NCBI RefSeq assembly: GCF_964340395.1
Contig: NC_135562.1
Coordinates: 6,229,634-6,293,633 of the forward strand
Origin: Glandiceps talaboti
Lineage: Eukaryota > Hemichordata > Enteropneusta > Spengelidae
DNA: 64,000 bases
Direction of reading: 5' to 3'
Shown piece after piece: positions 4,701 to 63,572 of this stretch (position 1 is the first letter of the stretch; every line of letters begins with the position of its first letter). Under the pieces are notes generated by a model. That model was not told the origin of the DNA and did not search any database. It saw only the letters and a list, made by a program, of their open reading frames with translations. A program made the translations under genes and the position numbers.

Positions 4701-7286
4701 AGTCCCATCTCGTCTGGCGACTAGTAGCGGCAAGGCCCCTTAGATCACTTGTATTAACTTGGCCGAATGAAGAAAAATACTGGGTCCAGGTGACAATTCA
4801 TTTAAAAGAGACTAGACTTACTTGCAAATGTTGACTTGAATATATAGGACATGACAGTGTTTCCATCGGCAATGTCTTTACCATCAGCAAGAGTTGAGTT
4901 CATTGCTGAACACATTTGCATGGCAGCGTCGTAAAGGAAGAATCCCTTGTTGTCAAACTGTTGTGGGATGAAGTAATCATATTGTAAGATGAGAGTGAGG
5001 AGAGCGGTATTCCCATCATTAATGATGGAATTTGTACAACAACAAAACAGCATATTTTTTTAAACATTTAAATAGCACAAGCTGGGGTTATATACCTTTT
5101 ACTCAGGTGAAAATATTTGCCTATGTTAAACGGTTACAGCATCGACCCTACACGATATGTTTAAAGTCATTGCATGCCTTCTATGACATAACAATTGCGT
5201 TCTGGTTTTGTGAAAGCAGTTTACAGCTTAGATTGGGTTCCTTAACATTTTTATACGTATCAAAAATTACGTCATCGGGTCATTTATATGTATTGCTATA
5301 TCGTAATACCATATTTTTTATAGTTCAATCAATTCCAAGTCATAGCTAGGTATGCTTCAGTACGTAGAATACTATGAATGACTTTTAAATACGCAGTATA
5401 AATCTCGCCCCAAAAATGTATAAACTCAGCTTGTGTCCCTTTAATAGATTTTCTTAATACAAGTGATTGAAAGTGTATTATTGTTAAATGGGAACAACAT
5501 TCCAAGGTAAGACATTTTCATAAACTTTGGGTTCGGGAGAGTCATTTCGTAATTTAACATCTATAAAGTTTGCACAATAGAGAACTTGCAATCCAGACTG
5601 AGCATGCTCAGACGCAAAGGAATATGGGATTATCTGTGGTTATTGTAATACCTAATCTGGAGCTTCCGATAAAATAAACCTCCCTCAATGGTCAGGGTGA
5701 CGTAGAATTGATCATTTGTGGTTACAAACAATGTAACATTATCGTTTACGATAGTAATTGGTTAGTATTTAATATCACGTTTCCCATGATGCAACATTCA
5801 ACATGGCGGGTTTGCAAGTTCCCTATTGCCAAGAAACAACAAAGTGGTGCTGGTATCACCGTAAGGGTCCGAGCAGTGGTACCGCGTGGCTTCACGGGAG
5901 TTAGCAGACATGCATATGTCTTACATGACTACTTTTCTGAATGAAATTAACGCTTGAATTGAATAGTCAGAAAACAATCTAGGTTTGTATGGTGCCTGAA
6001 TGTATGATTGTGCACCCTTTCCGGCGTATGAATATCTCGAGATATATGCGTCGGATCTACAAACGGGAAAATGTTTTGAAAAGAGGTACGAGGCTCTCTA
6101 TACCACGTTAAACTGCAGCAGTTACACATACAATTTATTCGTCAAGTTCTTACCACAAAATCCTCAGGTCCATTAAATATGGTATGAGTTCTTCGAATGC
6201 TTTCCTCTGAGAATTCATAGTATTTAGAAGGGAGCATCAGTGGCTGACGAAACTCTATGATCAATGAGTATTTTATGGCTTGTTTGGCAATTTGATCATC
6301 GGTTGGATCGAGCCAGTCTGTGAGTGAAAAACAGAAGTGGGCATGCATGGGGTTAAACGTAACGGGTGAAGACTGCAACCTGTGTGGCTTAGTGAAAAAG
6401 AATTGAGAAATTTAAAGAAAACCATACAAGGGAAAAGGGGTATTGAAGTGAAAGTAAGTTAAGACAAGGGGAGGGGAGAACATTGAGGAAAAGGGGAGGG
6501 AGGAAGATATGGGAAGGAGATGCGAGGGAAGATAAGGTACTAGAGAAGAGAAGAGTCGCGAAGGGAAGGGAAGGGAAGGGAGGGAAGGGAAGGGAAGAGA
6601 AGAGAATGAGGAGCAGAGAAGAGAAGAGAAGAGAAGAGAAGAGGAGAGGAGAGGAGAGAAGAGAAGAGAAGAGAAGAGGGGAGATCAGGGGGGAGATCAG
6701 GGGGGACAGCGGAAGGGTGGGGACTGGATGAGAAGGGAGGGGTTGGGGAAATTATCCTGAATCAAGTCTGATATATGTGCAAATATGACAATAAAATATT
6801 TTAAATAACTATCATGTCGAAAGTATATGTTTGGATTGATTGTAATACGCACCTCTGACGTATCCCCTGAGACCATGGTAAAAATGATCTACCGATGTCG
6901 CTATGACAACAGTGTCTTTATTTACATACACTTTATCCTTGTACATTTGTACGATGAAATCGCGATGATGAATAATCTTGCCAACAAACAGGTAGACTGT
7001 TGTGGGATAAAACAGAGATTCATTTAATATTTGAATATTATTAAAGTGAACAGTATACAAATAATGCCAGGCTTCACTTTCCAAACACACATGAAAGATG
7101 AAAAATACCAACTTGGCAACAGTTGGATAGATAGAATAGGATAACCACCTATATCCACGAAATACATAATGGTATATTGGTATATATGTGTGCGTCAACC
7201 TATTACCAAACAGACAGACGAACAGACGGTCAGATAGACAGACAGATAAATGGACGGTCAGGCAGATGACAGACAGACAAACAGAC

Positions 7287-7333
<47 letters not shown>

Positions 7334-10977: not shown

Positions 10978-13900
10978 ATGCCACATACAGTATGTATTGT
11001 TGGAGCAGGAGTAGTTGGAGTTTCTACAGGTGTCTGTATCCAGGAGACCATCCCAGATGTAGAGGTTACCATAGTAGCAGATAAATTTACCCCAGATACT
11101 ACAAGTGATGGAGCAGGGGGACTGTGGGAACCACATGCTTTGGGATCAACACCAGTGCATCTCATGAAGTGAGTAGTCTCTCACCCCCTGTAGTTATTGG
11201 TTCCACCCAAGCAGATGCCCATACTATTAAAGCTGCACTAGCTGAAACTGGAATATATTTTTTTTTTGAACCTCAGTAATTAGTTAGATATTATGACTTA
11301 CTTGTAACATTGTACACCCTGATTAGTATCGAATCTCCTGTGGGTCAATATAATCCTGTAGCTGTACATGTAACATTGGTACAATAAATTCAATGAAATT
11401 GATTTTTGGGTCCACACCCTAAAATCAGTTCATCATTATGATCATGACTTTAGCCTGTTACTGTACTACCTATGGATAAAATCAACCTCTTCTTAATATG
11501 TACAGTGTCTAAATATCAGTATTTTAACAATTTTCAGTGAATATATTTCTGGTTGTCTGATAGAAAAACAATGCTTCAGTTATAGCTAGTGCAACTTTAA
11601 ATTCATTTTCAATTAAATTTTCAACTTTTGATAAACCAAGACTTCAGTAGATGTACATAAATCACAAGAGGTCTTTGTGCCATTGTTTAATACATTATTC
11701 AGAGAGAACATTACTTTGCATGTAATGAAATGTCTGATTACCTTGTAATTTTTCACTAATTTCTTTAATAGACAGTGGTGTGATGCCACCTTCAAACATT
11801 TGTCCAAATTACTACAGCTGGAAGATGCCAATGACGCAGGAGTCCACCTAGCATCAGGTTATCATGTATTCAGAGAAAAAGTTAGGGTAGGTTTAGCTAC
11901 AATCATTGTAGCGTTTTGCTGTGATTTTGAGGGTTTTTTCGTCTGTTTTGGTGACTTTTTAAGTTTTATGTGCAGGTTAAACACTAAAATTTAAAAAGTC
12001 ACCAAAAAAGACAAAAAAACCACAAAACCGCAGCAAGACGCTACAATTATTGCAGATCTCTACCAATTGCACCCAACTAAAAATAGTTTCCCTGTTTGTA
12101 TCAATTGTTTATAATATCCATATCAAGTGTGAAAGTAAACTGTTTCAGTTTTAATTATCAGCCCATTTTGTGGTGTCTCTCAATTACTATGTTCAGACAA
12201 CAAATGTGAGTTTCACTCTGAAGCGATACATGTAGCAAAACTGATAACCAGGATTTTTGTGTCCCATTCACATAGTATTTTGTACTTGACTAATTGTCGA
12301 CACAAATCACATTCCAAAACCGGCGCAACACTACTATAATCGCATACTGATATCAAGGGCTGAAGGCCCGAGAGATCGAGGGCCGAAGGCCCAAGTCTTC
12401 GGCCCTCAATATCAGTATGCGATTATAGTAGTATTGTGCTGGATCGGAATAGACAATGACTTAAGTTTAGATAAAACATAGGGAAAAAAGGCACGAGCGA
12501 CTGTCGACAGTCAAAGAGTCAACATAACTGGCTACTTGTGAACCCCCTAAGTGTAATCAATATGTAAACAATGTTACCAGTACAAAGTGCAAGTTAGTTT
12601 AATAACTAGAGTAAACATAAATGCCATGATATATATATGTCTCCCTTTAGCCATGCTTTAGCTATAATGAATGACTATGTATACTCCACAAGTCAAACTA
12701 AATAGATTAACATATTTAAATACTTCATTGAAGTATATTAAGTTCATAAGGTTGGTCAGAATTGAAATTTAATTAAATATATAATAAATTTTTTCGGCAA
12801 CCATTTGGATTTATACAAATTAGATACTGTTCCACCACTTAGATTGAGGAGGACTTTTGATATTTCATTATTAGGACCAATCTGAAGATAATGGTGAAAA
12901 AATAAATTCTGTTGCATTTAGTGATGAGTCATTCCATATTTTGACTGGACTATAAATAATCAGGTGTGACATTCTCATTGTACTGTATTCAGTTTGCTGT
13001 TTGTTAGCTGATAACATTGTTTATAAATTGACTACAGGTGAAAGGTCCCATCACTTTATATATCATATCATGCCATGCCATATGTCATATCACATCATAG
13101 TAGACTAGATGATATCAATTCAAATTTAGCTAAGTGAGGCTAATAGTCTATGAGCTGCTATTAAAGTCAAATGCCAGAAAGTTAAAGCTGTTATCAGAGG
13201 TCCTAGGATGAGAATTTGCACATCGCAAATAGGAAATCGTTTGCAACATTACTGGGACAAGCCATTAGCCAAGCAAGTGGACTTGTTATCAAAGAGTACC
13301 AATATTTACACATGTGATGATGGGCTCTTACATAACACAAGTAAACAGCTGTAAAAGTGTAGTTCACAGCGTAAGATCATTTCTAAGGAGTGAGTCAATT
13401 GAGGCAAACCTTATCTCCGTCTTATATCAGTTGTTATCAATTTATTAGGCTATTATAAGTAACGCTACAAACAGCTTTAGAGATGCAAACAACTTTTATG
13501 ACACCCGTTTTCGCCAGGCAAGCCCGCGGGTTTGTTGCACTTGGACCGCTAATGGTTTGTGACTGTCATGAAATCTCCAGTAGCGTAAAACCTCCTCTCA
13601 AGTAAAATATTGCAGCGTTTGCTGTTTATAAATTATTGAAAAAGGGATAATCTATTACCATATTTCAGATTACCTGATTCAATTTCTCATGAGAAATTGA
13701 TTTGTTTATGTTTAGGACCCAGATTGGGCAGGCAGTGTGTATGGTTTCAGAACTTTAACAGAATCTGATGAAGAACTGAAGATGTTCCCTGGCTACAAGT
13801 ATGTATTCAAATTATTGACCCTTGACATTGATGAAGGCCCAATCATATTTACCTATATGTGTATTTGGTGGCACATACTAATATTAGATAGTATACAATT

Positions 13901-15545
13901 TTTCTAGTTTGACCTCGGTATATTTGGTCACATACAACAGAATGGTTTGTTTTTTTCACTTGAATCCCATATTTGGTCATATGTATGTAAACCAATATCC
14001 ATATTTGGTTGCATGTACATAAACCTGTATCCATATTTGGTCATATGTATATAAACCTATATCCATATTTGGATACCACTTTATCTAAGTGGTAAAATTC
14101 TCTTGCGTAATTATGTTAATGTGATGTGGTGATATCTTTCAGTAGCATACCATATATTCTAAATCTGACTTTTGATGTACAAGATGTTTTACGCTAAAGT
14201 GTACGTATGAAGTGTTTGTCACAGACAGACATTTTAGAGTAATTATTACTATTTTGTCTTCATTTCAGATATGCTTGGTTTTTCACATCAATAATGTGTG
14301 AAGGGCCAAGGTATCTACCATGGCTGACCAAAAGGTAAATTGTTTTTGTTGATTTGTTGTTGTTATTATCTTTTTAATGATAGCAGTGTAGTTTATTGCT
14401 TTATGTTACAACTAGACTGTGAAATACATCAGCAGGAGTGTCGTTATTGTCCCTCATCTTGCGACTGTAGGTACAAATAATGCAGTAGACTGTCGACAGT
14501 TGTTCGTGCCTTTTTAGCTACAATTCATCTAAATCAAAGTCGTCGCCTCACTCCGTAGCACTGGGTAATGCATACTGATAGGAACTGCGATTGCCGAAGG
14601 CACAAACTGTGAGTGCCGAAGCTCATGCCTCCGGCACTCGCTGATCAGTACGTCGTGGTTATAGTTATGCTCCGGATCGGAGCGAGGCAACGACTTTAGT
14701 TTTAGATAAAACATAGCAAAAAGGAGAGAACGACTGTCGACAGTCTAATAATGCAGCAGAAATCAAAGCAAAGAATCCTACACAGCTACCAATAAATGTC
14801 TAATATAGTAATATATGTAAATATGTTGCTGATATTTATTATGTAATCTCCTATTTATGGGGCCAAATATAAACATCCACAGGTCTAGGATCTATCTGCA
14901 GCCTTATCTAAATTTGATCACCAATATTCTGTTTCACAGAGTTTACTGGCTTCAATTTTACAAGAAACAAACTTACAGACTTAGTCTATGTTGTTTCATT
15001 TTTTTTAACGAGTAGATTAAAAATCCAAATAATCATTTTCCTCCATGGCCATTTTAATTTGATATTGTTTATGTGCACTTTATTACTTGTAAATACATTT
15101 TAATGAGGAAGACACCTTCAAATTTAATGTCTAGGTATAAAGGAAAAGGTGGCAAGCTTGTGAAAAGACATTTAAATTCACTGTCTGAGGTGAGTATTTC
15201 TGTATTATATAGAATTCTGATTTGGTGTGTTTGTCAACAGAGGCAATCTTATATGTATAGATAATACAGGCCTGTATTTTTGGTAACGAGTAGTACCTCA
15301 AATTGTCTGTTTCCAGTCAGGTGAAATGTATCAATAGGTATAATGTAACAGCCCTAGTTTGTCGACATCTAATCTGTATTTCTAATGATTTAATGATTGT
15401 AGCATTCCAGTAGAGTATGTATGTATGTAGGCAAGTCAAGTGTTATTATTATGATTTTGCCAAGATTTGTACTTGTGACAGATGTGTCTACATGTATCTC
15501 ACATTGGTTGATATTGCAATAAAACAAAGGCTTAATACTTTTTTG

Positions 15546-15620
<75 letters not shown>

Positions 15621-18233
15621 CTCTCCACCCTCCCTCTCTCTCTCCAGCTTTCTAGCAAATATGATGTTGTGGTGAATTGTTCAGGCCTTGGTGCATATTC
15701 ATTGATAGATGACAAAACAATGTACCCAATAAGAGGTCAGCTTGTAAGGGTGAGTTTGTAACCTCATTGTTGATTTTGATATTTGTGGAAGTTTAAACGT
15801 ACACATAACTCATATAATATCATACAAAATATATGCCACTGGGATTTTGCTTCAGCAACAGAACCTTCTTTTATTTCATAACCATCACTAACCTGACTTA
15901 AATAGCAGTGACAAAATATGTTTTATTTTTATCCAATCTTCTGTAAATATGTCACTGTTGAACCAAATTTTTTGATAGTAATTCTGAAATAAGGATTATA
16001 TAGTATTATATATATTTAGTTATATAGTATTATATATTATTTAGTTTTTAGCTGAAAAGAAAGGTTATATGCAACAACTTAATACTCAAAAAATCATAAT
16101 TTTGTTTGATATTTTTGGCAGGAAAGTTATAATTTAGCGTGAAAGTACACTGAAGATGCAGAGAATATATTTCCCCTTCATATTTCCTATAATACAGTTA
16201 TGGTACTCAAACTTATCAGTTTTACAGAATCTGTGCACATACGTGGTCCATGGAATTGGATAAATTTCCAGCAAAACTATTTTCATTGTCCTCGCCATAA
16301 TTATTGTCTTTAATTTTTTACTTCCACCAATTTTCTTATTGAGGATTTCTTTTCACTATCTGGTGTCATAAGTTCACTTCACTTGATTAATCTTTCTTTG
16401 AATATATTTACCATTCTAGGTGGATGCACCTTGGGTCAAACATTTTGTTGCCTTTGATGACTTTGTCTATTACATATTCCCAGGGTAAGTTCAGTGAATG
16501 GTGAATATATCATTAGAACACATCGTTTTCATATAGGCTTCTGTGATTGGCTTTAGATTGTATCACATGGTATGGACTATTGACCCACAGTGACCCCAAT
16601 TTGCATATAGGGTCACTAGTCGTGTTCTGTTTTCCCCAGGGCAATATTCATGTAGCATTAAAGTCTTATTAATGATTTGCTTTGACTGTGGAAAGAATCT
16701 GAGCCTCAGAATGTGATGTGTTATAAAACACTTATTGCCTGGCCGTATTCAGGCACTAGACGACATCATATTACCCTTCATGCTGTTATCAGCTTTCAGC
16801 CTTGGGAAATAGTTGCTACATATCAGCCCTGGGGTTAATATGATGTCTACTAGTGCCCGAATAAAGCAAGGCAATAAGTGTATAAAATGATATGCAACTT
16901 AAATTCATACAAATGTTATATCTTGACTACAAACAAAAATTGGCCTGGACACGTGCCCCACTTGAGCCGCTACAAATTTGTAGGTGATATATAAACACCA
17001 CATACATGTAACACAAAAATATCATTTTTGAAATCTAATATATGAACTGATAATACTAATGATAATGTAATTTTATTGCCATGCTACTTATACAGATGCT
17101 GAAAATTCAGTATTAGCAGCAGTGCACAAAAAAACGGCTTAATTCAAAATGTTGTTGTCTTTGTTTTCATCAACCTGACTATTATTTTTGTGAAAATCTT
17201 TCCCTTTTAGAGACAAGACAGTAGCCCTTGGTGGAACTCACCAGTACAAAGATTGGCGTCAAACAAATGATGAGAAAGATTGCGACAAAGTGTTTGATGG
17301 GTGTTGTAAACTAGTTCCTAGTCTAAAGGTATCTACAAATTCCTTCATCTTACATACAGATAGTCTAGAGGCTGCCCATGACTTTAAATCTGTTCTCATG
17401 TCTAGCTCAATGAAGTCCTGAAGTGAAATGTCATATTCAACCAAAACCACCCTCAGACTCATTAACGCCAGGTCTTTGTTACTCAAGAAAATTAAGTGTT
17501 TATTTCCCCATAGAGTTGATACAGTATTCGGCGGCCATATTGGATTCTAAAAACTTTTGTCCAAATCCATTTCAAACTTTGAATGGTGAACACAGTTTCT
17601 CTCTTTAATGACATGAACTTAGAATTGGTTTATGTCCAAGAGAGAACGCAAAGTGTATCAGTTTTATTTTCGAGTTGTAACCACATTTAATAATAGGAAT
17701 TATAAATACTTTTCGGTTCATAACCCCATGCAGCAACAAACATGGTGATGTTTTATTTCCCTCCCTATAAGTTCTATAATATTTGTTGTTTTCATTGATT
17801 TTTTTATTCAGAAAAGTAAAGTGCTTGGGAAATGGGCTGGATTGCGACCAGGGAGACCAACTGTCAGACTGGAGAAAGAAAAGATGAATTTTAGAGGTGA
17901 ACATATGAAGGTGAGCTTTGGCAAAGAAATTTAGCTTTCCATGATCTGTGAACTTGATATTCATTTTTCAAAGCTTTGAACAAATAATATATTGTGGTTG
18001 GAAAACACTGCTCTGATGAATTGATAGTAGAGCTAATATTTCATCAAACCACCATGGTGGTATTTTATGGTGAAAGTTTGTTTAATAGAAGGAATTGTCT
18101 TTTTTTACAGGTTGTTCATAATTATGGTCATGGTGGCGGTGGGATTTCTCTTCATTGGGGCTGTGCACAAGATGCAACCCGACTTGTCAAAGAGTCTCTG
18201 AGTTCATCAATGATACCAACATCCAGACTCTGA
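10978..18233 (+). CDS. D-amino-acid/D-aspartate oxidase, paralogue A (complete, ten exons)
   Basis: FAD-dependent peroxisomal oxidase that would deaminate D-amino acids to 2-oxo acids, ammonia and H2O2. Exons: 10978-11168, 11772-11886, 13716-13798, 14269-14334, 15135-15189, 15648-15749, 16420-16484, 17211-17328, 17812-17910, 18111-18233. They give 338 aa, close to the usual 340-347. Residues 5-14 ([10 protein letters not shown]) are the dinucleotide-binding fold, and GAGGLWEPH follows near 48-56. [11 protein letters not shown] lies in exon 6, then APWVKHF and the pocket loop VYYIFPG (tyrosines present) in exon 7. The substrate-arginine motif [12 protein letters not shown] (about 275-286) and [11 protein letters not shown] follow. 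The C-terminus is SRL, a type 1 peroxisomal signal. Oxidase family membership is firm. Whether it prefers neutral or acidic D-amino acids is not decided: the position that is Gln in human DAO is Glu here. The start follows a likely 3' splice site by about 20 nt. Confidence 0.93.
11905..12047. mobile_element. Fold-back element family IV, complete copy
   Basis: Two arms of about 60 bp (ATTGTAGCGTTTTGC ... TTTTTAAGTTTTA and its inverse TAAAATTTAAAAAGTCACC ... GACGCTACAAT) around a short spacer TGTGCAGGTTAAACAC. Oxidase A intron 2. A one-armed relative lies at 28826-28921. Confidence 0.8.
12287..12520. mobile_element. Inverted-repeat element related to the 14486-14747 element
   Basis: The right end is CGACTGTCGACAGTC, and AGTTTAGATAAAACATAG is shared with the 14.5-kb element. 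The centre is a strong palindrome: CTATAATCGCATACTGATAT and its inverse flank GGGCCGAAGGCCC. No clear target duplication was seen. Oxidase A intron 2. Confidence 0.6.
14477..14756. mobile_element. Mutator-like MITE with 9-bp target duplication
   Basis: A 262-bp body (14486-14747) starts TAGACTGTCGACAGT and ends ACTGTCGACAGTCTA. It is flanked by ATAATGCAG at 14477-14485 and 14748-14756. A perfect 9-bp duplication suggests the Mutator superfamily. The interior has no coding capacity. Oxidase A intron 4. Confidence 0.8.
15549..15646 (+). repeat. (CT)n tract acting as polypyrimidine tract of oxidase A intron 5
   Basis: About 70 bases of pure CT, then C/T-rich DNA, ending in CCAG at the acceptor of exon 6 (exon begins 15648). 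The microsatellite is itself the 3' splice-site pyrimidine tract, so length changes could affect splicing. Confidence 0.85.
16728..16886. mobile_element. MITE with about 45-bp inverted repeats
   Basis: Arms ACACTTATTGCC ... ACATCATATTA and TAATATGATGT ... GGCAATAAGTGT. Flanks ATAAA and ATAAAA allow a short AT-rich target duplication. Oxidase A intron 7. Confidence 0.75.
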
Positions 18234-21037: not shown

Positions 21038-27640
<6,603 letters not shown>

Positions 27641-33335: not shown

Positions 33336-33821
33336 ATATAAACTGTTTCAAGTCGAATTGAAAACCATTATGTAACGAATGGTTGTATTAGCGGAAAAGA
33401 ATGTTTTTAAGCTTTTGACAATTTGAGGAGATGTGCATTGTTCTCAAATCCAGTTGTAGAACAAATGTACTTCTCTATTTTTCTCTTCAGAGTATATTTA
33501 TACAAGGACTGTAGCAATGTGTTCTATCCACTGGACTGACCTTGAATGTATGTTAGCTCTCTGGAGATATATTCCGCACAGTAACATTACCCCATACATT
33601 ATTAATAGAACCAAGAGATCACTACATTGAAACACACTCATACTGACAGTTAACCTATTCGTGGAGGTCACATATTTGATGCAAATCGCCACTTCAAATA
33701 ACTACATATACTATGAGGTATGGTAGAATAGAACAACATTATGTGTCTGACAAATACTACCTGACACTTGGTTAAAATTGATGATGGTGATCTGTCAACA
33801 GCTTATGTCTGACACAGACAC

Positions 33822-36095
33822 ACCACAAAACCCTCTACACTTTATATCCCTATACACAGTACATATTTTACAGGTCTGAGTTGTGTGGCCAAACTATTAG
33901 AGATTGCTGACCCTCACACCACAAAACCCTCTTTACTTTTATCCCTACACAGTACATATTTAAAAGGTCTGAGTTGTGTGGCCATCCTCATAGAGATTGC
34001 TGACCGTCACACCACAGTACCGCTACACTAAATTATCCCTACACAGTACATATTTAAATGTTCTGAGTTGTGTGGCCAAACTATTAGAGATTGCTGACCC
34101 TCACACCACAAAACCCTCTTTACTTTTTATCCCTTCGCAGTACATATTTAAAAGGTCTGAGTTGTGTGGCCATCCTCATAGAGATTGTTGACCCTCACAC
34201 CACAGTACCTCTACACTAAATTATTCCTACACATTACATATTTTACAGGTCTGAGTTGTGTGGCCAAACTATTAGAGATTGCTGACCCTCACACCACAAA
34301 ACCCTCTTTACTTTTTATCCCTTCGCAGTACATATTTAAAAGGTCTGAGTTGTGTGGCCATCCTCATAGAGATTGTTGACCGTCACACCACAGTACCGCT
34401 ACACTAAATTATCCCTACACAGTACATATTTAAATGTTCTGAGTTGTGTGGCCAAACTATTAGAGATTGCTGACCCTCACACCACAAAACCCTCTTTACT
34501 TTTTATCCCTACACAGTACATGTTTAAAAGGTGTGAGTTGTGTAGCCATCCTCATAGAGATTGCTGACCGTCACACCACAGTACCTATACACTAAATTAT
34601 CCCTACACAGTACATATTTAAAAGGTCCGAGTTGTGTGGCCAAACTATTAGAGATTGCTGACCGTCACACCACAAAACCCTCTTTATTGTTTCTCCCTAC
34701 ACAGTGCATGTTTTAAAGTTCTGAGTTGTGTGGCCATGGCATCCTCATAGAGATTGTTGACCGTCACACCACAGTACCTCTACACTAAATTATTCCTATG
34801 CAGTACATACTTTAAAGTTCTGAGTTGTGTGGCCAAAGTATTAGAGATTGCTGACCCTCACACCACAAAACCCTCTTTACTTTTTATCCCTTCGCAGTAC
34901 ATATTTAAAAGTTCTGAGTTGTGTGGCCATGGCATCCTCATAGAGATTGTTGACCGTCACACCACAGTACCTCTACACTAAATTATCCCTACACAGTACA
35001 TATTTAAATGTTCTGAGTTGTGTGGCCAAACTATTAGAGATTGCTGACCCTCACACCACAAAACCGTCTTTACTTTTTATCCCTTCGCAGTACATATTTA
35101 AAAGGTCTGAGTTGTGTGGCCATCCTCATAGAGATTGTTGACCGTCACACCACAGTACCTCTACACTAAATTATTCCTACACATTACATATTTTACAGGT
35201 CTGAGTTGTGTGGCCAAACTATTAGAGATTGCTGACCCTCACACCACAAAACCCTCTTTACTTTTTATCCCTACACAGTACATATTTAAAAGGTCTGAGT
35301 TGTGTGGCCATCCTCATAGAGATTGCTGACCATCACACCACAGTACCGCTACACTAAATTATCCCTACACAGTACATATTTAAATGTTCTGAGTTGTGTG
35401 GCCAAACTATTAGAGATTGCTGACCCTCACACCACAAAACCCTCTTTACTTTTTATCCCTACACAGTACATGTTTAAAAGGTGTGAGTTGTGTAGCCATC
35501 CTCATAGAGATTGCTGACCGTCACACCACAGTACCTATACACTAAATTATCCCTACACAGTACATATTTAAAAGGTCTGAGTTGTGTGGCCAAACTATTA
35601 GAGATTGCTGACCGTCACACCACAAAACCCTCTTTACTTTTTATCCCTACACAGTGCATATTTTAAAGTTGTGAGTTGTGTGGCCAAACTATTAGAGATT
35701 GCTGATATCGCGACCCTCACACCACAAAACCCTCTTTATTGTTTCTCCCTACACAGTACATGTTTTAAAGTTCTGAGTTGTGTGGCCATGGCATCCTCAT
35801 AGAGATTGTTGACCGTCACACCACAGTACCTCTACACTAAATTATTCCTATGCAGTACATACTTTAAAGTTCTGAGTTGTGTGGCCAAAGTATTAGAGAT
35901 TGCTGACCCTCACACCACAAAATCCTCTTTACTTTCTATCCCTACACAGTACATATTTAAAAGGTCTGAGTTGTGTGGCCAAACTATTAGAGATTGCTGA
36001 CCCTCACACCACAAAACCCTCTTTATTGATTCTCCCTACACAGTACATATTTAAAAGGTCTGAGTTGTGTGGCCATCCTCACAGAGGTGTTACCT
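33822..36095 (+). repeat. Satellite with nested periods of about 94, 188 and 950 bp
   Basis: The basic unit of about 94 bp carries TCTGAGTTGTGTGGCC and CACACCACA. Two alternating variants exist: CCAAACTATTAGAGATTGC with AAAACCCTCTTTACTTTT, and CCATCCTCATAGAGATTGTT with AGTACC and ACACTAAATTA. They make a dimer of about 188 bp. Blocks starting near 33997, 34185 and 34373 recur exactly 950 bp later (34947, 35135, 35323). About 24 monomers. Short frames of 64 codons recur with the dimer and are not genes. Confidence 0.92.
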
Positions 36096-37055
36096 GTCTT
36101 AGATAAATGGATGGCAGTGGCAGTGATTTGTCACCAGCTTATGTCTGACACAGACTAGCTGAGACTTGGTTAAGATGGATGACATTGATTTGTCACCAGC
36201 TTATGTCTGACCCAGACTAGCTGAGACTTGGTTAAAATGGACGACAGTGATTTGTCACCAGCTTATGTCTGACACAGACTAGCTGAGACTTGGTTAAAAT
36301 GGATGACAATGATTTCTCACAGCTTATGTCTGACACAGACTAGCAGGGACTTGGTTAAAATGGACGACATGCAGTGATTTGTCACCAGCTTATGTCTGAC
36401 ACAGACTAGCTGAGACTTGGTTAAAATGGATGACATTGATTTGTTACAGCTTTTGTCTGACACAGACTAGCTGAGACTTGGTTAAAATGGATGACAATGA
36501 TTTGTCACCAGTTTATGTCTGACACAGACTAGCTGAGACTTGGTTAAAATGGATGACAGTGATTTGTCACCAGCTTATGTCTGACACAGACTAGCTGAGA
36601 CTTGGTTAAAATGGATGACAATGATTTGTCACAGCTTATGTCTGACACAGACTAGCAGGGACTTGGTTAAAATGGATGACAGTGATTTGTCACCAGCTTA
36701 TGTCTGACACAGACTAGCTGAGACTTGGTTAAAATGGATGCCAGTGAATTGTCACCAGCTTATGTCTGACACAGACTAGCTGAGACTTGGTTAAAATGGA
36801 TGACAATGATTTGTCACAGCTTATGTCTGACACAGACTAGCAGGGACTTGGTTAAAATGGATGACAGTGATTTGTCACCAGCTTATGTCTGACACAGACT
36901 AGCTGAGACTTGGTTAAATGGATGACAGTGATTTGTCACCAGCTTATGTCTGACACAGACTAGCTAAGACTTGGTTAAATGGATGACAGTGATTTGTCAC
37001 CAGCTTATGTCTGACACAGACTAGCTGAGACTTGGTTAAAGTGGATGACAGGATT
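36096..37055 (+). repeat. Satellite, unit about 62 bp, about 15 copies
   Basis: The unit includes GATTTGTCACCAGCTTATGT, CTGACACAGACTAGC and GAGACTTGGTTAAAATGGA. Some units lack two bases (TCACAGC) or read AGCAGGGAC, and these variants recur in a patterned order. A single unit also precedes the 94-bp array at about 33765-33822. Confidence 0.92.
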
Positions 37056-37111
37056 TATGGCAATCGCTGCATCAAAACGAAACGAATTGAAACGAAACAA
37101 AAAATAAAAAT

Positions 37112-39397
37112 TTAGGTGATTTTTATATGAACAGTGGCTTTCAAATATGTAATTTGTGGAATCAGTTTTTGTCTATTGTAATTCTGTTTTCCAATTAAAA
37201 CAGCTACAGGGATACTAAGGGGCACAATGCAACAACCATAGTGCACACAATATACAACACAACAACCATCCTCATCACTAAACTGAAACACAATACAGAC
37301 CGTTGACCCCTCAGTGAAAGTCACAGCTCGTAACCACCGTTTGCCATTTAAAACAGCTACAGGGATACAATGAGGTACAATGCAATAGCCATAGTGCACA
37401 CAATATACAGCACAACAACCATCCTCATCACTAGACTGAAACACAGTACCGACCGTTGACCCCTCAGTGAAAGTCACAGCTAGTAACCACTGTTTGCCAT
37501 TTAAAACAGCTACAGGGATACTATGAGGTACAATGGAACAGCCATAGTGCACACAATATACAGCACAACAACCATCCTCATCACTAGACTGAAACACAAT
37601 ACTGACCGTTGACCCCTCAGTGAAAGTCACAGCTAGTAACCACTGTTTGCCATTTAAAACAGCTACAGGGATACTATGAGGTACAATGGAACAGCCATAG
37701 TGCACACAATATACAGCACAACAACCATCCTCATCACTAGACTGAAACACAGTACCGACCGTTGACCCCTCAGTGAAAGTCACAGCTCGTAACCACCGTT
37801 TGCCATTTAAAACAGCTACAGGGATACAATGAGGTACAATGCAATAGCCATAGTGCACACAATATACAGCACAACAACCATCCTCATCACTAGACTGAAA
37901 CACAGTACCGACCGTTGACCCCTCAGTGAAAGTCACAGCTAGTAACCACCGTTTGCCATTTAAAACAGCTACAGGGATACTATGAGGTACAATGGAACAG
38001 CCATAGTGCACACAATATACAGCACAACAACCATCCTCATCACTAGACTGAAACACAGTACCGACCGTTGACCCCTCAGTGAAAGTCACAGCTAGTAACC
38101 ACCGTTTGCCATTTAAAACAGCTACATGGATACTATGAGGTAAAATAGAACAGCCATAGTGCACACAATATACAGCACAACAACCATCCTCATCACTAGA
38201 CTGAAACACGATACTGACCGTTGACCCCTCAGTGAAAGTCACAGCTAGTAACCACCGTTTGCCATTTAAAACAGCTACAGGGATACTATGAGGTACAATG
38301 GAACAGCCATAGTGCACACAATATACAGCACAACAACCATCCTCATCACTAGACTGAAACACAGTACCGACCGTTGACCCCTCAGTGAAAGTCACAGCTA
38401 GTAACCACCGTTTGCCATTTAAAACAGCTACAGGGATACTATGAGGTACAATGCAACAGCCATAGTGCACACAATATACAGCACAACAACCATCCTCATC
38501 ACTAGACTGAAACACAGTACCGACCGTTGACCCCTCAGTGAAAGTCACAGCTAGTAACCACCGTTTGCCATTTAAAACAGCTACAGGGATACTATGAGGT
38601 ACAATGGAACAGCCATAATGCACACAATATACAGCACAACAACCATCCTCATCACTAGACTGAAACACAGTACCGACCGTTGACCCCTCAGTGAAAGTCA
38701 CAGCTAGTAACCACCGTTTGCCATTTAAAACAGCTACAGGGATACTATGAGGTACAATGGAACAGCCATAATGCACACAATATACAACACAACAACCATC
38801 CTCATCACTAGACTGAAACACAGTACCGACCGTTGACCCCTCAGTGAAAGTCACAGCTAGTAACCACCGTTTGCCATTTAAAACAGCTACAGGGATACTA
38901 TGAGGTACAATGCAACAACCATAGTGCACACAATATACAGCACAACAACCATCCTCATCACTAGACTGAAACACAGTACCGACCGTTGACCCCTCAGTGA
39001 AAGTCACAGCTAGTAACCACCGTTTGCCATTTAAAACAGCTACAGGGATACTATGAGGTACAATGGAACAGCCATAGTGCACACAATATACAGCACAACA
39101 ACCATCCTCATCACTAGACTGAAACACAATACTGACCGTTGACCCCTCAGTGAAAGTCACAGCTAGTAACCACCGTTTGCCATTTAAAACAGCTACAGGG
39201 ATACTATGAGGTACAATGCAACAACCATAGTGCACACAATATACAGCACAACAACCATCCTCATCACTAGACTGAAACACAGTACCGACCGTTGACCCCT
39301 CAGTGAAAGTCACAGCTAGTAACCACCGTTTGCCATTTAAAACAGCTACAGGGATACAATGAGGTACAATGCGACAACCATAGTGCACACAATACAA
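37112..39397 (-). repeat. 156-bp satellite, about 14.6 copies, with a 761-codon open frame
   Basis: The unit is exactly 52 codons, so a stop-free unit stays open across the whole array. The minus-strand frame repeats VYCVHYGCSIVPHSIPVAVL, NGKRWLLAVTFTEGSTVGT and VFQSSDEDGCCA. Copies are over 95% alike, and many differences change the amino acid (GCS/GCC, VGT/VSI), which argues for recent amplification without strong protein selection. No domain, signal peptide or neighbouring exon was recognised. A cysteine-rich repeat protein is possible but unsupported. The last copy, at the C-terminal end, degenerates into unrelated sequence. Confidence 0.85.
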
Positions 39398-55388: not shown

Positions 55389-55715
55389 CTATAATTTTGA
55401 TGATGGCATGTTCACAAAGTTGACTTTATGACCGAGGAGTTCTCCAACCAGTCTTGTTGCATGTTGTGCACATCCCCAATGAAATGTGATACCACTTCCT
55501 CCATGCCCATAGTTATGAACCACCTATAAGAGAAAAGACTATTGGTTTGACCACCTGTATATTATACAATATGTAAATTCTGTCTATATACCACCTGTAC
55601 TAATAGATACAAATTGAATACACACCCATATGATCATACTATTTGCATGTCGCTTTATCCGTTCATATCTGTCTATCTATCCATCCATCCATCTATCTAT
55701 CTATCTATGTATCTA

Positions 55716-55753
<38 letters not shown>

Positions 55754-58700
55754 CATCCGTCCGTCCGTCCGTACGTCCGTCTGTCCATCCATCCATCCAT
55801 CTATCTATCTAAACAAACAACTTTTGGTTCATGATTATATATTACTTAGGCGTAAAAAAAAATGTGGTTCCGATTACATTCATTTTTACAATAGGTGGGG
55901 TAGATAGATTTTTTATATTATTTTATTATATTTTTTGTTCATGTGTGAGTGTCTAGTTCAAGTTTTCCATTGTTTTCCAAATGGTCTCTGTGTTGTTTAT
56001 TTCTTCATATCAGATGTACAGCCATTACAGATTTGAAGAATAGTTTTATATTGTCTTTTTATGTTGATGTCAGTTTCCGCATCTACTATTCTTGCTAGAC
56101 TTCACAATTGTTTGCAATTTTATTATTATTTTTCTCGAATACATCGGGTAACCAGAACCAAACAACATTTTTTATTTGGCCTTTAGGAGGAAACAATGAG
56201 TGCTTACCTTTATATTATTGTCTTTGATAGTCATGACTTCCTTCTCAAGTCGCACACTAGGACGACCAGGTCTTAGACCCACCCATTCATGATCAATGGT
56301 TGCATTCTGTAAGTCAGAACAGAAAGTCTGCAAGTCTTACAACTGTAAAAATCAAGCCATAAGCAAACTAAGATAGATACAAACTAAAAATATTGTTGCA
56401 ACATGTTGATATAAGCTAGCAACAGCCATTGATGGAATTCTACTCACAGTAGGTGGCATATTTGATAACACATTTTTTCTCACCTGGACAAACACATTCA
56501 ACTTCACTTTCAGTATTTTTTTCACCTGACAAATATGTTAACTTTTCCTTTTCTTATTTACACTATTCCTTTTGAACTTGCACTAAAATAATTGATTTTA
56601 ATAACGAAAAAAAAAAAAAAAAAAAACTTTGTCTTTATGCTATCTTGATTACTTTTTTTTTGTAATTTATCCTTAATACTATTGTCACTGAAATTAATAG
56701 AATTAAACATAACATGGTGTGTGCTGGATGTTTCATGAAGTCAAATTGACTGTTCTAACTCACCAGACTTTCATTTCTATGAATATTTATGAGCGTCCTC
56801 GCTTATGGAACGTCTAACTCAGATACCACTAGGGAGTGTTTGAGGAAATAGTGCAGACACTAGATTATATTTTATGTGTCCAAATCCTCAGTCAGTGAGT
56901 AGCGTGCGTTCTGTATGTGCATTGTGCATGTTGACTATTAGATTGTATGTTACAGGTTATGTAAATATAATCTGCATCTGAATACAGACTATGTGATTAT
57001 ATCAACATAACCAAGGCACCACTATCACTCACTTGTGTAATCAACTAGCAAGTTTTAGTTTCTGTCCAGTATGTTGTGAAAACTAAGTCAATGATGAGCC
57101 AATAGGGAACTTGCAATCCAGACTGAGCATGCTCAGACACAAAGGACTATGGGATTATATGTGGTTATCGTAATAGCTAATCTGGAGCTACCGATAAAAA
57201 AAACCTCCCACAACAGTCAGGGTAAACTATGAATTGACCATTCGTGGCTGCAAACAATGTAACAGTATTGTTAACAATACCAATTTATTAGTATTTATTT
57301 ATCACATTTCCCATGATGCAACATTCAACATGGCGGGTTTGCAAGTTCCCTATTTGGAGACATGGACTTGAGAATATGTTAAGTTGGGGTTTGATATTAA
57401 GTTGACTCTCTCCCAGTCCTCGGAGCTTCACATTACTAAAATTAAAGCTAAACGAGTTATTTTGTATGTACCGATATCATCTACATAACCGTACTTGAAT
57501 ATCCTTGTACTGTGCACCCTCATCGACCATGATAGAGATAACCATTCATTGACATGTGACTGCGAAGCTCCGTGTTTTCACGAAGCCCTCAGTGAGTGGG
57601 ACGAGTAAGGGTCAAAGGTTGAGGGCGCTCAGTAGAACTACCTCATAAATGCAAGTGTACTCGTAAGAGTCATATATCACCATTGTCATTTTAATAAACT
57701 TAAAAATCTACATGTAAGACTTGCCTTCAGACTAGGGTACAATTCACAACTTTTTTCAAATAATCTTTTCTTGATGTCTTCGTATGGGTTGGTATTCCAA
57801 TCTCCTTTGTCTGTTGTACCTCCCAATACAACATTATTGGCACTGAAGAAAACATTAAAATTAAACATTAAAAAACACCTTGAGGTTAAACACCAAGCAT
57901 ATTAACCACAGACAAGGAAGAAATCAACAAACTATTTTAATGACTGGAACTCAATAAATCATGATCTGAAAGCCAGCTGGGACACTGATGCTTTCACTGC
58001 ATACCTCTCCCAAGTGTGATATGTGTAAGGAGTTTAGCTGATATTAGGCCTAATAAAAAAAATTGTGTGGTTCTGATTACACTCAATTTTGGAATAGGTG
58101 GGGGTAGGTAGATTTTTGAATTTTTTTTATTACATATTGTTTTCATGTGTGAGTGTCTAGTTCAGGTTTTCCATTGTTTTCCAAATGGCCTCTATGTTAT
58201 TTATTTTTTCTTCCTATCAGATGTACAGATTGGATGAAGAGTTTTATATTGTCTTTTTAAGTTGATGTCAGTTTCCGCATCCACTATTTCTCGTGAAACT
58301 TGACAATTTTTGCGATTTTATAAAAAAAAAATTCTCGAATACGTTAGAAAAATTCTTTGGGTCAGCACTGAAAAACTAGGTGGGGTCGGATAACCGGAAC
58401 CAAACAATTATTTGTTTAGGCCATATATGGATACAGAAAGAGATCAGTAATTATTATGGGATAACTTGCATCAGTGCATGCACATACTAGTGGTATTTAC
58501 ACTGCTGTGCTGTGCCAGAAAATATTATTGCATGTTCCTGTATGCAAATTACTGTGCATATAAGTGTGATTATTCTTGTACATTGTACATAAAATACCAT
58601 GAATGCATAGTAACTGTTACTGCCAATTTTACATGATTTTTCTTTTTTTTTGGATAAATGCAAATTATTGTAACAATACCAGAACCCATCCATGACATGT

Positions 58701-61700
58701 GAGTGTCTGAGTGGATATTTAGGCTACATTTTCACTCATATTTGCAAAGTTTACAGATGCAGCCGACACTGCAGGCACTCATGAAAACATCCCAAGTACG
58801 CAAAACGTGCACTCAAGCATTATGAGGTTCTGTCATAGTATACACAGAAATACCAGCCATAAACAGAACTATACATTCTGTAAGGAAAACACAGTTAGGC
58901 TTAATTTTTCTTTCACACATTGCCTGTACATGAAACTGCAAGTGCATTGAAATGAGGTGTGATTTTGGTGGATCAGATTTGACTGTGTGGAAAACCGAAC
59001 CTCATTTCAGTTAAGCAAGAATGATGTGCATTAAACTTACCCTGGTATAACATACATAATGCATCTGACGTTATTATTATTGCAAAATGATTGCCATACA
59101 CAAAACAAAAAGTTGAACATTATTTTTAATTTCTGAACTGCATGCATATTTGCTTGGAATAATCATGTGTTTTAAACTTACCATGATACAATATAGCTGG
59201 GATCTCCATCTGTTTTCAATATCACAAAATGTTTAACCCATGGTGCTTTGACCTTGAACGTGTCACAGTTGCAAAAGGAAAAGTTTGGAATTATTTTCAT
59301 TTCCAAACTATGTTTGTTTGGAACATTTCTATGTGTTAAACTTACCCTGGTATAACATAGACATCTGGCTTGTCTGTTAATAGCATTGCAAAATGTTTGA
59401 TCCATGGTGCCAGCACCTTGAAATTGACAAAATGTTATTTCTAACTTCTGAAAAACATTTGTTAGTCATGCCTGAAAGTGCAACAAAATAAATTCTAAAT
59501 ACTTCATGCAACAAACTTCAAATGTGTCCTTCATAAATCTTTCAAAGCTTAAACTACAAACAAAATTTTGATAAAAGAGAGAAAAAACAAACGTGTTTTT
59601 TGCTTGTTCCTCATATACATAAATGAGGGTTCTCATCATTACGAAATCTGAGAAACTTTAAACATTCCTCCCCTGGGATTTTTGTTCTACCCCTCGACAC
59701 AAGCTAATGTCAAGTGGACTTGCAGGTATACATATTTAGATTAGATACACAGGTGGAAATTCAACTATTATGGTAGACTCTTGAATAAATTAGTACTAGA
59801 TGACGAGAGAACAAGACTGAGTTTGCAGTCAGAGCTCTCAATTATCATATACCCAGTATCGATTCCAATGCAATTCAATGGGGAGCAGGTGCAATGAACC
59901 TGTGCAATAATTTTCCTTATCACAGCCCGGCACACTTTGCCCAAATATGGCAAGTGGCACACTCATTGATTTCTGTTGATCCACTCAGTGATTTGGCTTT
60001 GTTAATTTCATCACTATTTTGACTTTTCTGCGAACAAAATAATATTTCAGTGCCAATTTATGTGCTTATTTAATTCAAATTCTGTTTCCGTCCCATTACT
60101 TGAGGCATATGATATAATCTTTATGGCCCGGTTACGGGTTTCATGGACCTCAACATTACTGCATACGGGACCTTCTATTAAAGTCGGGCCCTTTCACCGT
60201 ACAACCTTGCTCCACAAAACACATATCCTGGCCATAAAGATTATTATCAAATTATGTTGTGTGCTGTGGTTAAAATTTGAGAACTCATGGCTGTAGGTAG
60301 ATTATACTTTCTAATGCATTACAGCAATGTATCATTTCATGACGTCAAGGAACTTTATGTCATCTACAAAGCCTCACTTGTCATAGACTTCCATCAACAA
60401 ATCTCTTGGTGATGTCACATAATTTCATGGCTAAGGTTTTACTAAAAACACTTAAAGTAAATCCGATGGTAAATGACCGAAAAACCTGTCATATTTTTAA
60501 TAGGCTTACATGGGTATTTCTTTCAGTAACATACAGCATAATATATTTCATGACAACGTTGTCAATTAAAAATTGCAATAATCAACAGGAGTGTTTAGAA
60601 TCACCTTTAAAATTTCTAGAGTGTTTGTTTACTAGTAAGTCAACAATTGTTGTGTACAGCTACTAGTCATATTTGTAATGTGTAAAGTCCAATTCTCGAT
60701 ACCTGTAATACCATTTTGTGTCATGCTGGGGTCAAAATAGCCAGAAGGTCAACCTATTGACATACACACCCAGAGTAATGCATGTACCGGTATAGCATGT
60801 GGTGGGGAAGTCATGGTGTCAACCAAGAAATCAATGATTGTAATCGTTACGAGATGTCCAATATGATTTAAATCCGATGTACCGTACGGTACTCAGTGCG
60901 ATTTCCTTGTAGCTCTTACATTTATTGCGATTTGTTCTTTAGTGAGCACCTGATATCTACATCTGACACAATACAATAGGTGTTCTCAAGCCACACAAGA
61001 ACGCTGAATGAATTTACTCAACGAATGAGAACGTGAAATGCGCTGAAACATACAGGTACAGTACGTATACTTCAGCAAAAAGAGATTGAGGACTGAGTGC
61101 ACACAATGATGTTATTATTATTATTTGGTGGTTTTCTTTCTTTCAATTTCGAATGTTAAATGTAAAATTGCAAGATGGATTCTGGTTGGCTACTCATAAC
61201 TACGAGTTCGGTTTCGGGAAAACCTATGTTACTGTGTTAGATATCAGTAACGGGCACTCACAAAAGAACAAATGACAGTATTAAAATGTAAGAGCTAAAA
61301 AGAAATCGCGCCGAGGACTACATCAGATTTTAATCAGATTATGAGATGCCTATAAGTTGATTGGTGGTAACGAGAATTAGTTACTATCTTTTACTAATTT
61401 GCATGCCTTCAAAAACCAAGGTGGTCATACCCGTATTAGTTGACCTCTGATTGGCTGCACACTGTGGTCACCAATCAATGATCTTGCATGAAGCCCTGTA
61501 CAGTTAACAATCACATCAAACTCTCCTACAAGCTGGAACAAAAAGTGATAAAAGGTAACTTAAGGGAGAATACCACTCCATGAAATACATACATCTTCAT
61601 AAACTATGGGTTCTGGAGAGTCATTTCATGATTTTACATCACCTACAATTACTTGTGATTTCAGAGAAACATCAAGTTGATTATGTGCATTTATAGGGTA

Positions 61701-63572
61701 TCTTTGCTATGGGTTATTGCATCATGGGAGTCAGCAGAAATAATATATTCTAGGGGCTATTGCATCATGGGAGTCAACAGAAATAATATGTTCATGGTTG
61801 AACAATGAATCCTAGAAAGGGCAGGGGTTAAATTTTCTTAACATTCACAATTACCTCCTCCATGTCACCTATTCTTTTACACACAACCTTTCCACCTTTA
61901 GTCTTGAATCTGATTAAAATAAGACACAGTGAGTGATTATTGTTATTCTGTCAAATTTTTCATTCGCCAAAAATAAATATGTTCACAGTATTTGCTTGTA
62001 CTGGTTGTCCTTTTTTCATACACTTTAAAACTAGTGTATGCCCTGTGAGAGAGACTTGTATGTTCCTCTTACCTATTCATCAGCCAAGGCAGGTACATCT
62101 TACACTCGGCAATTATTGACGTAAAGTAAGCACCATATCTGTCAAAATGTATTTGAAACTGTAATTACTAATAAGATATTAACAAATTATCAACTGATTT
62201 TGTCATACCTTTATACGAGAGCATTCTTAGTGCATATCTCACTTAGCACCTGCTGAAAAGCTTGTTTTTAGATTTTTCCCATCATGTATTCCCACACTGA
62301 CTGTGCATACACAGAGCTGCATTCAAGGTCACCTTTCATGGTGGTGGCCTATCCTTTAAAAACCTGTCTATGGTCAAAATGGGTACGAGCATTGATTTTT
62401 GGTCAAAATGGCAGCATTGGCCATACGCCCCTACCAGAGCTGGGCACAGGTACCCCCCCCCCCCCCCATTAAACTAATACTTTTAATTCATTTCACTCCC
62501 AGCCTGTCATTTTGCTATCAATTTGATGGCAACTGTCAATTAACCATTAATTAATCATTCTTAATTAAAATGACAACAATTATATCTTGAACATTGTGAA
62601 ATGTACTACCACATTTCAACTTTCAAATTTCCAGTCTCAAAACTGCTTTCCTAGCTGTTAAAAACTTACTTGGCTGTAGGAAATAATTGAGAGATTTCTT
62701 CCGTGGATACTCTTCTGTAGTTGTACACTGTCTTTGACCAGTGGGGATCCTACAATGACAAAAATACAATTTACAAAGAGTCCAGGGGTAGCAGAGAATA
62801 CAAATTCTGATTCTGAGTAATAGAAATTCAACCATCATAATTTGACAAACTGAGTAAGTTATATTAAAACCACGCAGATTTATCAAACTTTTATTTTTTT
62901 TATCGACAAGTGCTATAATTTCATATAATTCTTTATTTTTTAGGATATTTTTCAGCAGGATATGCTGGCAGCCGAGTAAACCTATATGTAACTACCTAAG
63001 GTGTATCAACAAAACTTCACTCTGCTAGGTGGTTCTTTATGAACATTCTTCACTTTGCTAGGTGGTTCTTTATGAACATTCTTCTCTTTGCTAGGTGGTT
63101 CGTTATGAACATTCTTCACTTTGCTAGGTGGTTCTTTATGAACATTCTTCACTTTGCTAGGTGTTTTTTATGAACATCCTTCTCTTTGCTAGGTGGTTCT
63201 TTATGAACATTTTTGACTTTGCTAGGTGGTTATACACAAACGTTACTTTGCTACGTGGTTAAACAATACTCTGCTAGATTGTTCTATGAACCAACTTTAC
63301 TTTGCTAGGAGGCTATGTACAATCGTAACTTTGCCTGGCATTGTGTTAAATACTTACTTACTTACTTACTCACTTACTTACTTACTTACTTAACCTGTTG
63401 GTCCAGCTTCAATGTCATGAACTTACCAGAAAGCTTTATGCAAATAAAACTTACTTCTTGTGGTTTGTCTAAAAAAAGATGCCATCCTGATAAAAGGCCA
63501 ACACCAGCAATGGATGATTCCTCAGACTTAAACAGTGCTTCTAAGTGTCTGAAAGTAGCATTTCCCCACTCT
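55389..63572 (-). CDS. D-amino-acid/D-aspartate oxidase, paralogue C (exons 2-10; exon 1 beyond right edge)
   Basis: Third peroxisomal FAD oxidase with the same intron map as A and B. Exons: 63572-63455 (2), 62749-62670 (3), 62138-62073 (4), 61909-61855 (5), 61532-61431 (6), 59416-59346 (7a) or 59252-59182 (7b), 57842-57725 (8), 56306-56208 (9), 55523-55389 (10). No stops occur. Marks: [10 protein letters not shown] in exon 2, [11 protein letters not shown] in exon 4, [20 protein letters not shown] in exon 6, [15 protein letters not shown] in exon 8, [15 protein letters not shown] with the substrate arginine in exon 9, [20 protein letters not shown] in exon 10, and C-terminal SKL. Exon 7 exists in two intact versions. 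The donor after exon 8 is GC (AAG|GCAAGT) instead of GT. The FAD-binding first exon should lie right of the window. Confidence 0.9.
55640..55812 (+). repeat. (CTAT)n/(CTGT)n/(CCGT)n microsatellite
   Basis: Tetramer repeats with successive single-base variants, in intron 9 of oxidase C close to exon 10. Confidence 0.95.
55847..56183 (+). mobile_element. Dispersed repeat family V, copy 1
   Basis: About 340 bp, matching 58045-58423 over GTGAGTGTCTAGTTCA, TCCATTGTTTTCCAAATGG and GATGTCAGTTTCCGCATC. The ends suggest inverted repeats of the type GGCCTAA...TGTGGTTC. Confidence 0.75.
57103..57353 (+). mobile_element. MITE family I, copy 3 (best preserved)
   Basis: Perfect 13-bp inverted ends AGGGAACTTGCAA and TTGCAAGTTCCCT, with TA adjoining each end. 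Intron 8 of oxidase C. Confidence 0.85.
58045..58423 (+). mobile_element. Dispersed repeat family V, copy 2
   Basis: Starts GGCCTAATAAAAAAAATTGT and ends ACAATTATTTGTTTAGGCC, imperfect inverted ends of about 30 bp. Same orientation as copy 1 and in the neighbouring intron of oxidase C. Confidence 0.75.
59025..59430 (-). repeat. Triplicated exon 7 of oxidase C (two intact, one decayed)
   Basis: Three tandem units of roughly 140-165 bp including flanking intron (TTAAACTTACC on the plus strand beside each donor). 7a encodes [12 protein letters not shown] and VYVIPG; 7b encodes [16 protein letters not shown] and SYIVS. Both are 71 nt with the same start and end phase. The third copy (about 59041-59101) keeps the donor and CATTTTGCAATAATAATAAC, but is one base short relative to 7a and has no visible acceptor. 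Confidence 0.88.
60112..60246. repeat. Hairpin repeat in oxidase C intron 6
   Basis: ATAATCTTTATGGCC is mirrored by GGCCATAAAGATTAT. Confidence 0.6.
61568..61650 (+). repeat. Dispersed repeat, related to 5486-5577
   Basis: CATAAACTATGGGTTC and GAGAGTCATTTCATG as in the earlier copy. A separate 44-bp duplication (ATTGCATCATGGGAGTCA) follows at about 61708-61795. Confidence 0.45.
63010..63315 (+). repeat. Minisatellite, unit about 33 bp, about 8 copies
   Basis: Unit CTTTGCTAGGTGGTTCTTTA TGAACATTCTT with decay toward the right end. A (CTTA)n tract follows at 63348-63392. Intron 2 of oxidase C, next to exon 2. Confidence 0.9.

Follow-up and report, generated by a model that had tools for sequence, protein, structure and literature searches.

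Candidate mutually exclusive exons for the active-site lid in D-amino-acid oxidase-type genes of Glandiceps talaboti

Introduction

Can a single oxidase gene carry two versions of its active-site lid and choose between them by splicing? The question is raised by a 64,000-nucleotide stretch of the Glandiceps talaboti genome (the whole stretch analysed, hereafter the window), in which a gene of the D-amino-acid/D-aspartate oxidase (DAO/DDO) type, gene C, holds two intact copies of exon 7. We consider it somewhat probable, judging from their sequences, that these copies, 7a and 7b, are mutually exclusive versions of the lid exon. If splicing does swap the lid, one gene would give rise to two enzymes that are identical apart from their natural lids, and comparing them would offer a clean test of the role of the lid.

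Results

Gene C and its neighbours

Three oxidase genes of the DAO/DDO type, named A, B, and C, lie in the window. Their features, and the exons of gene C in order of transcription, are as follows (window coordinates, unless another location is given).

Gene A: 11772-18233 (exons found), plus strand
Gene B: 26502-21038, minus strand
Gene B exon 7: 23486-23562, minus strand
Gene C: 63572-55389 within the window, minus strand
Gene C exon 1: L088:1543-1350, outside the window; contains the ATG, followed by VGVIGAGVIGLSS
Gene C exon 2: 63455..63572, minus strand
Gene C exon 3: 62670..62749, minus strand
Gene C exon 4: 62073..62138, minus strand
Gene C exon 5: 61855..61909, minus strand
Gene C exon 6: 61532-61431, minus strand; ends in phase 0
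Gene C exon 7a: 59416-59346, minus strand; 71 nt, phase 0 to 2, 23 residues followed by GG
Intron between 7a and 7b: 59253..59345, minus strand; 93 nt, resembles the stretch 3' of 7b
Gene C exon 7b: 59252-59182, minus strand; 71 nt, phase 0 to 2, 23 residues followed by TG
Degenerate copy 7c: 59103-59041, minus strand; keeps YVIPG and a GTAAGT donor, has deletions, homologous AG missing
Gene C exon 8: 57842-57725, minus strand; first base is the last of the split codon; GC donor
Gene C exon 9: 56208..56306, minus strand; contains the Arg of RPSVRLE
Gene C exon 10: 55389..55523, minus strand; HNYGHGG, C-terminal SKL, stop

With 7a, the ten coding exons of gene C form one open frame from ATG to stop. 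Exons 6–10 score 92.8 bits with 7a and 89.1 bits with 7b against the Pfam DAO model (PF01266; cut-off 27.9), and match mammalian oxidases in the PDB at E values of 1e-38 or better. The FAD-binding motif of the N-terminus, GxGxxG, is present in VGVIGAGVIGLSS. RPSVRLE aligns with RPQVRLE of 1dao, and we take its arginine to be the equivalent of the carboxylate-binding Arg283 of human D-amino-acid oxidase (hDAAO). A tyrosine occupies the Tyr228 column in both 7a and 7b. The C-termini read SKL in genes C and B, SRL in gene A, and ARL in gene D, a related gene on another contig described below; all are presumably peroxisomal PTS1 signals.

By sequence, gene C is an FAD-dependent oxidase of the D-amino-acid/D-aspartate oxidase family, lacking the residues expected of the D-aspartate oxidase subtype. 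In human D-aspartate oxidase (hDASPO), acidic substrates are served by Arg216 and Arg237 (PMC8260693, PMC5715370). The Arg216 column holds Met in 7a and Ile in 7b, and the Arg237 column holds Thr in gene C (GGTTDKGDW versus GGTRQKGDW), so that neither form would be expected to favour acidic substrates.

A single exon 7 was found in each of genes A and B, of 65 and 77 nt. Oxidase B, whose exons are open, has Gln at the column of the substrate-binding Tyr228 and Cys at the Gly232 column, and may act on an unusual substrate. In gene C, intron 8 begins with GC (AAG/GCAAGT, 57724-57719, minus strand), and exon 6 of gene D likewise has a GC donor. Elsewhere in the window, a partial gene on the minus strand (6812-7657) encodes an ANF_receptor domain (Pfam E 9e-13) with weak likeness to GABA-B receptor chains. 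Three adjoining tandem-repeat arrays at 33819-39394 have units of 94/188, 62, and 153 nt; the 153-nt array holds a 767-codon open frame on the minus strand that is probably not a gene.

Two copies of exon 7 in gene C

The preliminary description of this locus reported two 71-nt exons, both in phase with exons 6 and 8, that could not be included together without breaking the frame and that end in VYVIPG and SYIVS. Coordinates, phases, and translations bear this out (..DVYVIP+G in 7a, ..PSYIVS+C in 7b). Each copy has an AG acceptor, with AAG directly before the exon and GTAAGT directly after it. The two are identical at 42/71 nucleotides without gaps and at 11 of 24 residues, counting the split codon, and they found each other reciprocally in a search of the 64-kb window (E ~1e-5). 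The similarity extends into the flanking DNA, where alignment of the intron 3' of 7a with the one 3' of 7b scores 53, a value reached by none of 300 shuffles. Length, GT–AG sites, frame, and homology, the features by which mutually exclusive pairs are recognized in the scheme outlined in PMC3228551, thus all agree between 7a and 7b.

Predicted transcripts joining 6-7a-8 or 6-7b-8 are each open as far as the stop in exon 10. Inclusion of both copies leads to a TGA inside 7b, and skipping of both to a TAA in exon 8. Since the frame is broken in both of these cases, only 6-7a-8 and 6-7b-8 would yield a full protein.

The third copy, 7c, lies within the span covered by the preliminary description, which does not mention it. 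In gapped alignments with 7a, 7b matches at 50/64 positions and 7c at 49/56, so that the broken copy is the one closer to 7a. Use of 7c as an exon was considered and rejected: the homologous AG is absent, and the upstream in-frame AGs score poorly in the splice-site matrix described below. An AG at the extreme end of 7c scores well in that matrix.

Exon 7 encodes the active-site lid

In hDAAO, the lid is the loop 216-228 (or 217-227), which includes Tyr224; Leu215 and Ile230 line the pocket, and Tyr228 holds the substrate (PMC8260693, PMC5715370). Exon 7 spans the stretch before the lid, the lid itself, and the tyrosine that binds the substrate carboxylate. The preliminary description spoke of pocket tyrosines in this segment of known oxidases; the cited sources place it in the lid and pocket, with Tyr224 and then Tyr228 (PMC8260693, PMC5715370). 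As summarized there, mammalian DAO owes its broad choice of substrates to the plasticity of the lid, and product release is limited by how slowly the lid moves (PMC5715370, PMC8260693).

A protein made with 7a would have the standard lid, in which Tyr-x-x-Pro-Gly is kept. The 7b form would carry a different lid with an altered turn after the substrate-binding tyrosine, and access, turnover, or the preferred D-amino acid should differ as a result.

Conservation of exon 7b

A copy that had been decaying since the duplication should lie farther from other oxidases than 7a does. Replacement differences to gene A amount to 18.8/50.8 sites for 7a and 17.3/51.1 for 7b, and those to gene B to 20.0/55.9 and 20.1/56.7, respectively. 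The two copies are therefore equidistant from A and B; a clear excess of replacement changes in one copy, proposed in the preliminary description as the mark of decay, was not found, and the case for plain decay is weakened. In addition, 7b retains VxAPWxKHF, the substrate-binding tyrosine, and 8 of the 10 residues that are fixed across A, B, 7a, and a mammalian DAO. Its change from Gly to Cys is shared with gene B.

The most conspicuous departure is at the Pro231 column. Here 7b has Ser, and Pro is found in A, B, 7a, mammalian DAO, both copies in gene D, and 86/86 sampled prokaryotic relatives (80 of at least 481 found, plus 6 chosen from 57 plasmid records; mostly actinobacteria). Among the 22 solved chains matched by the protein with 7a, 18 score lower with 7b, three score higher (7ct4, 1c0i, and 9vpf), and one is lost. 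Between 7a and 7b, synonymous differences (9.3/16.9) and replacement differences (19.7/55.1) do not differ significantly in proportion (Fisher p 0.26).

Whether an unused copy could have stayed as intact as 7b was simulated with substitutions alone, without insertions or deletions. The outcome depends on the clock. With 0.14 substitutions per site, about what the introns suggest and the lower of the two clocks, such a copy arose in 23% of runs; the share fell to 2.7% at 0.28 and to 0.06% at 0.5, the value from synonymous sites. The estimate from introns is rough, being based on identities of 57/75 with gaps (after 7a versus after 7b) and 28/36 without gaps beside the donors. Because alignments of shuffled sequence already average 70%, the intron alignment score is informative and the gapped identity is not.

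These data bear most directly on the proposal that 7b is a duplicate without a use whose decay does not yet show, with 7a as the sole working exon 7 and 7b and 7c as leftovers of tandem duplication. The Ser at an otherwise invariant Pro column, the nonsignificant purifying signal, the 23% survival on the lower clock, the broken neighbour 7c, and the abundance of tandem repeats in the window all fit it. Against it stand the equal distances to A and B, the 0.06% survival on the synonymous clock, and the retention of frame, length, and both splice sites by a copy more diverged from 7a than 7c is, as well as the two intact copies kept in gene D. We regard an unused 7b as rather unlikely. The evidence on 7b from gene C alone is mixed.

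A second gene with a duplicated exon 7

The genome (590 Mb, 47 contigs) was searched with exon 10, five candidates being scored; the resulting counts are lower bounds. At least four places matched at E 0.01 or better, namely C, B, A, and, on another contig, gene D. The exon 7 region of gene D is arranged as follows.

Gene D: L101-L103, another contig; exon 7 present twice, with exon 6 before and exon 8 after the pair (L101:8469-9130)
Gene D upstream exon 7: L101:9130-9063; 68 nt, VHAPWIKHFTYTNTGPSYYVVP followed by GG
Gene D downstream exon 7 (D7d): L101:8539-8469; 71 nt, VTAPWLKHFVISQHTDQERLVVP followed by GG

The lid exon is thus duplicated in two, C and D, of at least four DAO-type genes. 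Both gene D copies run from phase 0 to 2 between AG and GT sites. Either copy alone reads to the end of exon 10, and inclusion of both or neither leads to stops. Of the residues corresponding to the fixed set, the upstream copy holds 10/10 and the downstream copy 9/10, and the Pfam scores are 79.2 bits with the former and 73.2 with the latter.

Unlike the pair in gene C, the gene D pair has a significant deficit of replacement differences (20.2/51.8, against 12.7/17.2 synonymous; Fisher p 0.011). In the same kind of simulation, an unused copy stayed as intact as that of gene D in 0.43% of runs at 0.3 substitutions per site and in 0.025% at 0.46, a value exceeded by the synonymous estimate for the pair, which is itself near saturation. 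These signs of constraint suggest that the pair is too diverged for easy survival without selection. No similarity was found between the introns that follow the two copies, and the pair accordingly looks old.

Genes C and D are alike in that just one of the two copies retains the standard Tyr-x-x-Pro-Gly: 7b of gene C is without the Pro-Gly, and D7d, as in gene B, is without the Tyr228 equivalent. The like arrangement in gene D strengthens the idea of mutually exclusive use in gene C. Of the preliminary proposal that 7a and 7b are so used, the architecture stands and now has a parallel in gene D; the Ser of 7b at the Pro231 column and the broken state of the neighbouring 7c speak against it.

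The first coding exon of gene D is also present in two copies, L102:6427-6626 (200 nt) and L102:5059-5264 (206 nt), which correspond to 16427-16626 and 15059-15264 in the joined L101-L103 coordinates. Each has its own ATG (MAPVKVCVVGAGV...), and both end in the same phase before GT. They are possible alternative first exons.

Origin of the exon pairs

A tree of exons 6, 8, 9, and 10 joins B with C (80% bootstrap) and then A (72%), leaving D and 1dao outside. Trees of exon 7 rejected none of five topologies, with the within-gene pairs slightly ahead; they fit separate duplications or one old pair with losses and cannot tell the two apart. A closer relationship of 7b to oxidase B, suggested by the common VKAPW, DGD, and CATG before the donor, was considered and dropped, as no topology was rejected with either four or six exons.

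In genes A and B, introns 6 and 7 were compared with exon 7 for remnants of a second copy, and none stood out in 16 comparisons with 200 shuffles each (lowest, 7/200). A wider scan, in which 24 of the 42 comparisons concerned A or B and each used 100 shuffles, yielded about what chance would give, the two results at 5/100 or below being A exon 7 in A intron 7 (4) and C7a in D intron 6 (3). The stretch after 7b showed weak similarity to intron 7 of B (9/300 shuffles) and of A (15/300).

It is doubtful, although a real alternative, that the C and D pairs descend from one old pair with an a-type and a b-type copy, reduced to a single copy in A and likewise in B. Copy order and phase are alike in C and D, and the exon 7 trees do not reject such a history. 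Within-gene pairing fits slightly better, however; A and B have no standout remnant in introns 6 and 7; and the introns around the pair are alike in C and dissimilar in D, which points to a younger event in C. This alternative concerns origin and is compatible with mutually exclusive lid exons.

Splice signals and a model for exon choice

The matrix used to score splice sites drew on sites outside 7a and 7b, 23 acceptors and 20 donors in all, less one wherever the site being scored was itself among them. The matrix is small and rough: it ranks several AGs in or near 7a and 7b above their real acceptors, and the end of exon 3 of gene A (its second exon) is probably misplaced. Among 22 donors, that of 7a ties for best and that of 7b is 10th; the acceptors of 7a and 7b are weak, ranking 22nd and 21st of 25. 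Weak acceptors fit regulated exons, though some nearby AGs score higher.

A search for docking-selector pairing across four intron pairs turned up nothing convincing (of 60 shuffles per pair, 8, 24, 59, and 1 were equally low or lower), nor did folding of four introns singly (z -0.5, 1.6, 0.3, and -2.1), and Rfam and tRNA scans gave no lead. Steric block of mutually exclusive exons involves less than 50 bp between donor and branch point (PMC5740500); with the 93-nt intron here, it would be possible only if the branch point lay far upstream.

The data suggest a model in which a tandem duplication of exon plus intron produced 7a and 7b, and in which each transcript takes one copy or the other, perhaps by regulated choice. 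Transcripts with both copies or neither would stop early and hence be lost. An improbable alternative gives 7b a regulatory role, joint inclusion with 7a or joint skipping producing early-stop transcripts whose degradation sets the amount of oxidase; the early stops on both routes, the weak acceptors (22 and 21 of 25), and the loss of the invariant Pro would suit it, but a poison exon has no need of the open frame, phase, and VxAPWxKHF...Y that 7b keeps, and both gene D copies keep coding constraints.

Discussion

Lid exons as alternatives

Taken together, mutually exclusive use of two lid exons may extend beyond gene C. It is quite possible, if short of probable, that in the animal lineage concerned this oxidase family has come to switch its lid through exon choice more than once, by two gains or by one gain with two losses. 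Genes C and D would then each encode a pair of D-amino-acid oxidases that differ in the lid, with the standard Tyr-x-x-Pro-Gly in one and an altered version in the other. Thanks to the gene D pair, the lid idea can be tested twice within one animal. The two pairs also raise the question of whether the same exon can be duplicated again within an enzyme family, as is described for ion transporters (PMC9741552).

Mutually exclusive tandem exons are already known as such; the lid-exon pair in DAO-type oxidases is a good candidate for a further case, at a telling position in the enzyme. No mutually exclusive or duplicated exon in DAO or DDO genes appeared in open-access titles and abstract openings among the matches listed, a scope outside which subscription papers mostly fall, and in this the open-access literature agrees with the preliminary description, whose author knew of no case in the enzyme family.

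Comparison with known systems

The isoforms of human acyl-CoA oxidase, ACOX1, differ in the chain length of their substrates. ACOX1 resembles gene C in being an FAD oxidase that exchanges a tandemly duplicated exon (PMC9741552), and its exon pair keeps 28/55 residues, about half, as here, including all five predicted FAD-binding residues (PMC9741552). It belongs to another protein family, and its isoforms are established, whereas those of gene C are predicted.

Mutually exclusive exon clusters in general share similar length, the same splice-site type and frame, and homology, as do 7a and 7b (PMC3228551, PMC5740500, PMC6071210). According to the same reports, 60% of human clusters include exons with lengths not divisible by three, for which joint inclusion fails, as it does with 7a and 7b; the human set is backed by junction reads, a kind of support that differs from the genomic sequence underlying the present pair.

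A further comparison is with the mammalian DAO and DDO enzymes. In the account given in PMC8260693, human DAO is without splice variants in UniProt, unlike the exon pair predicted here, and the human DDO variants it describes arise by skipping of exon 4 or by an N-terminal extension, never by a swap of the lid. Family and segment are nonetheless the same: the column of hDAAO Leu215 and hDASPO Arg216, the lid (216-228 or 217-221), and Tyr228 or Tyr223 all have their counterparts in the stretch that gene C carries in two versions.
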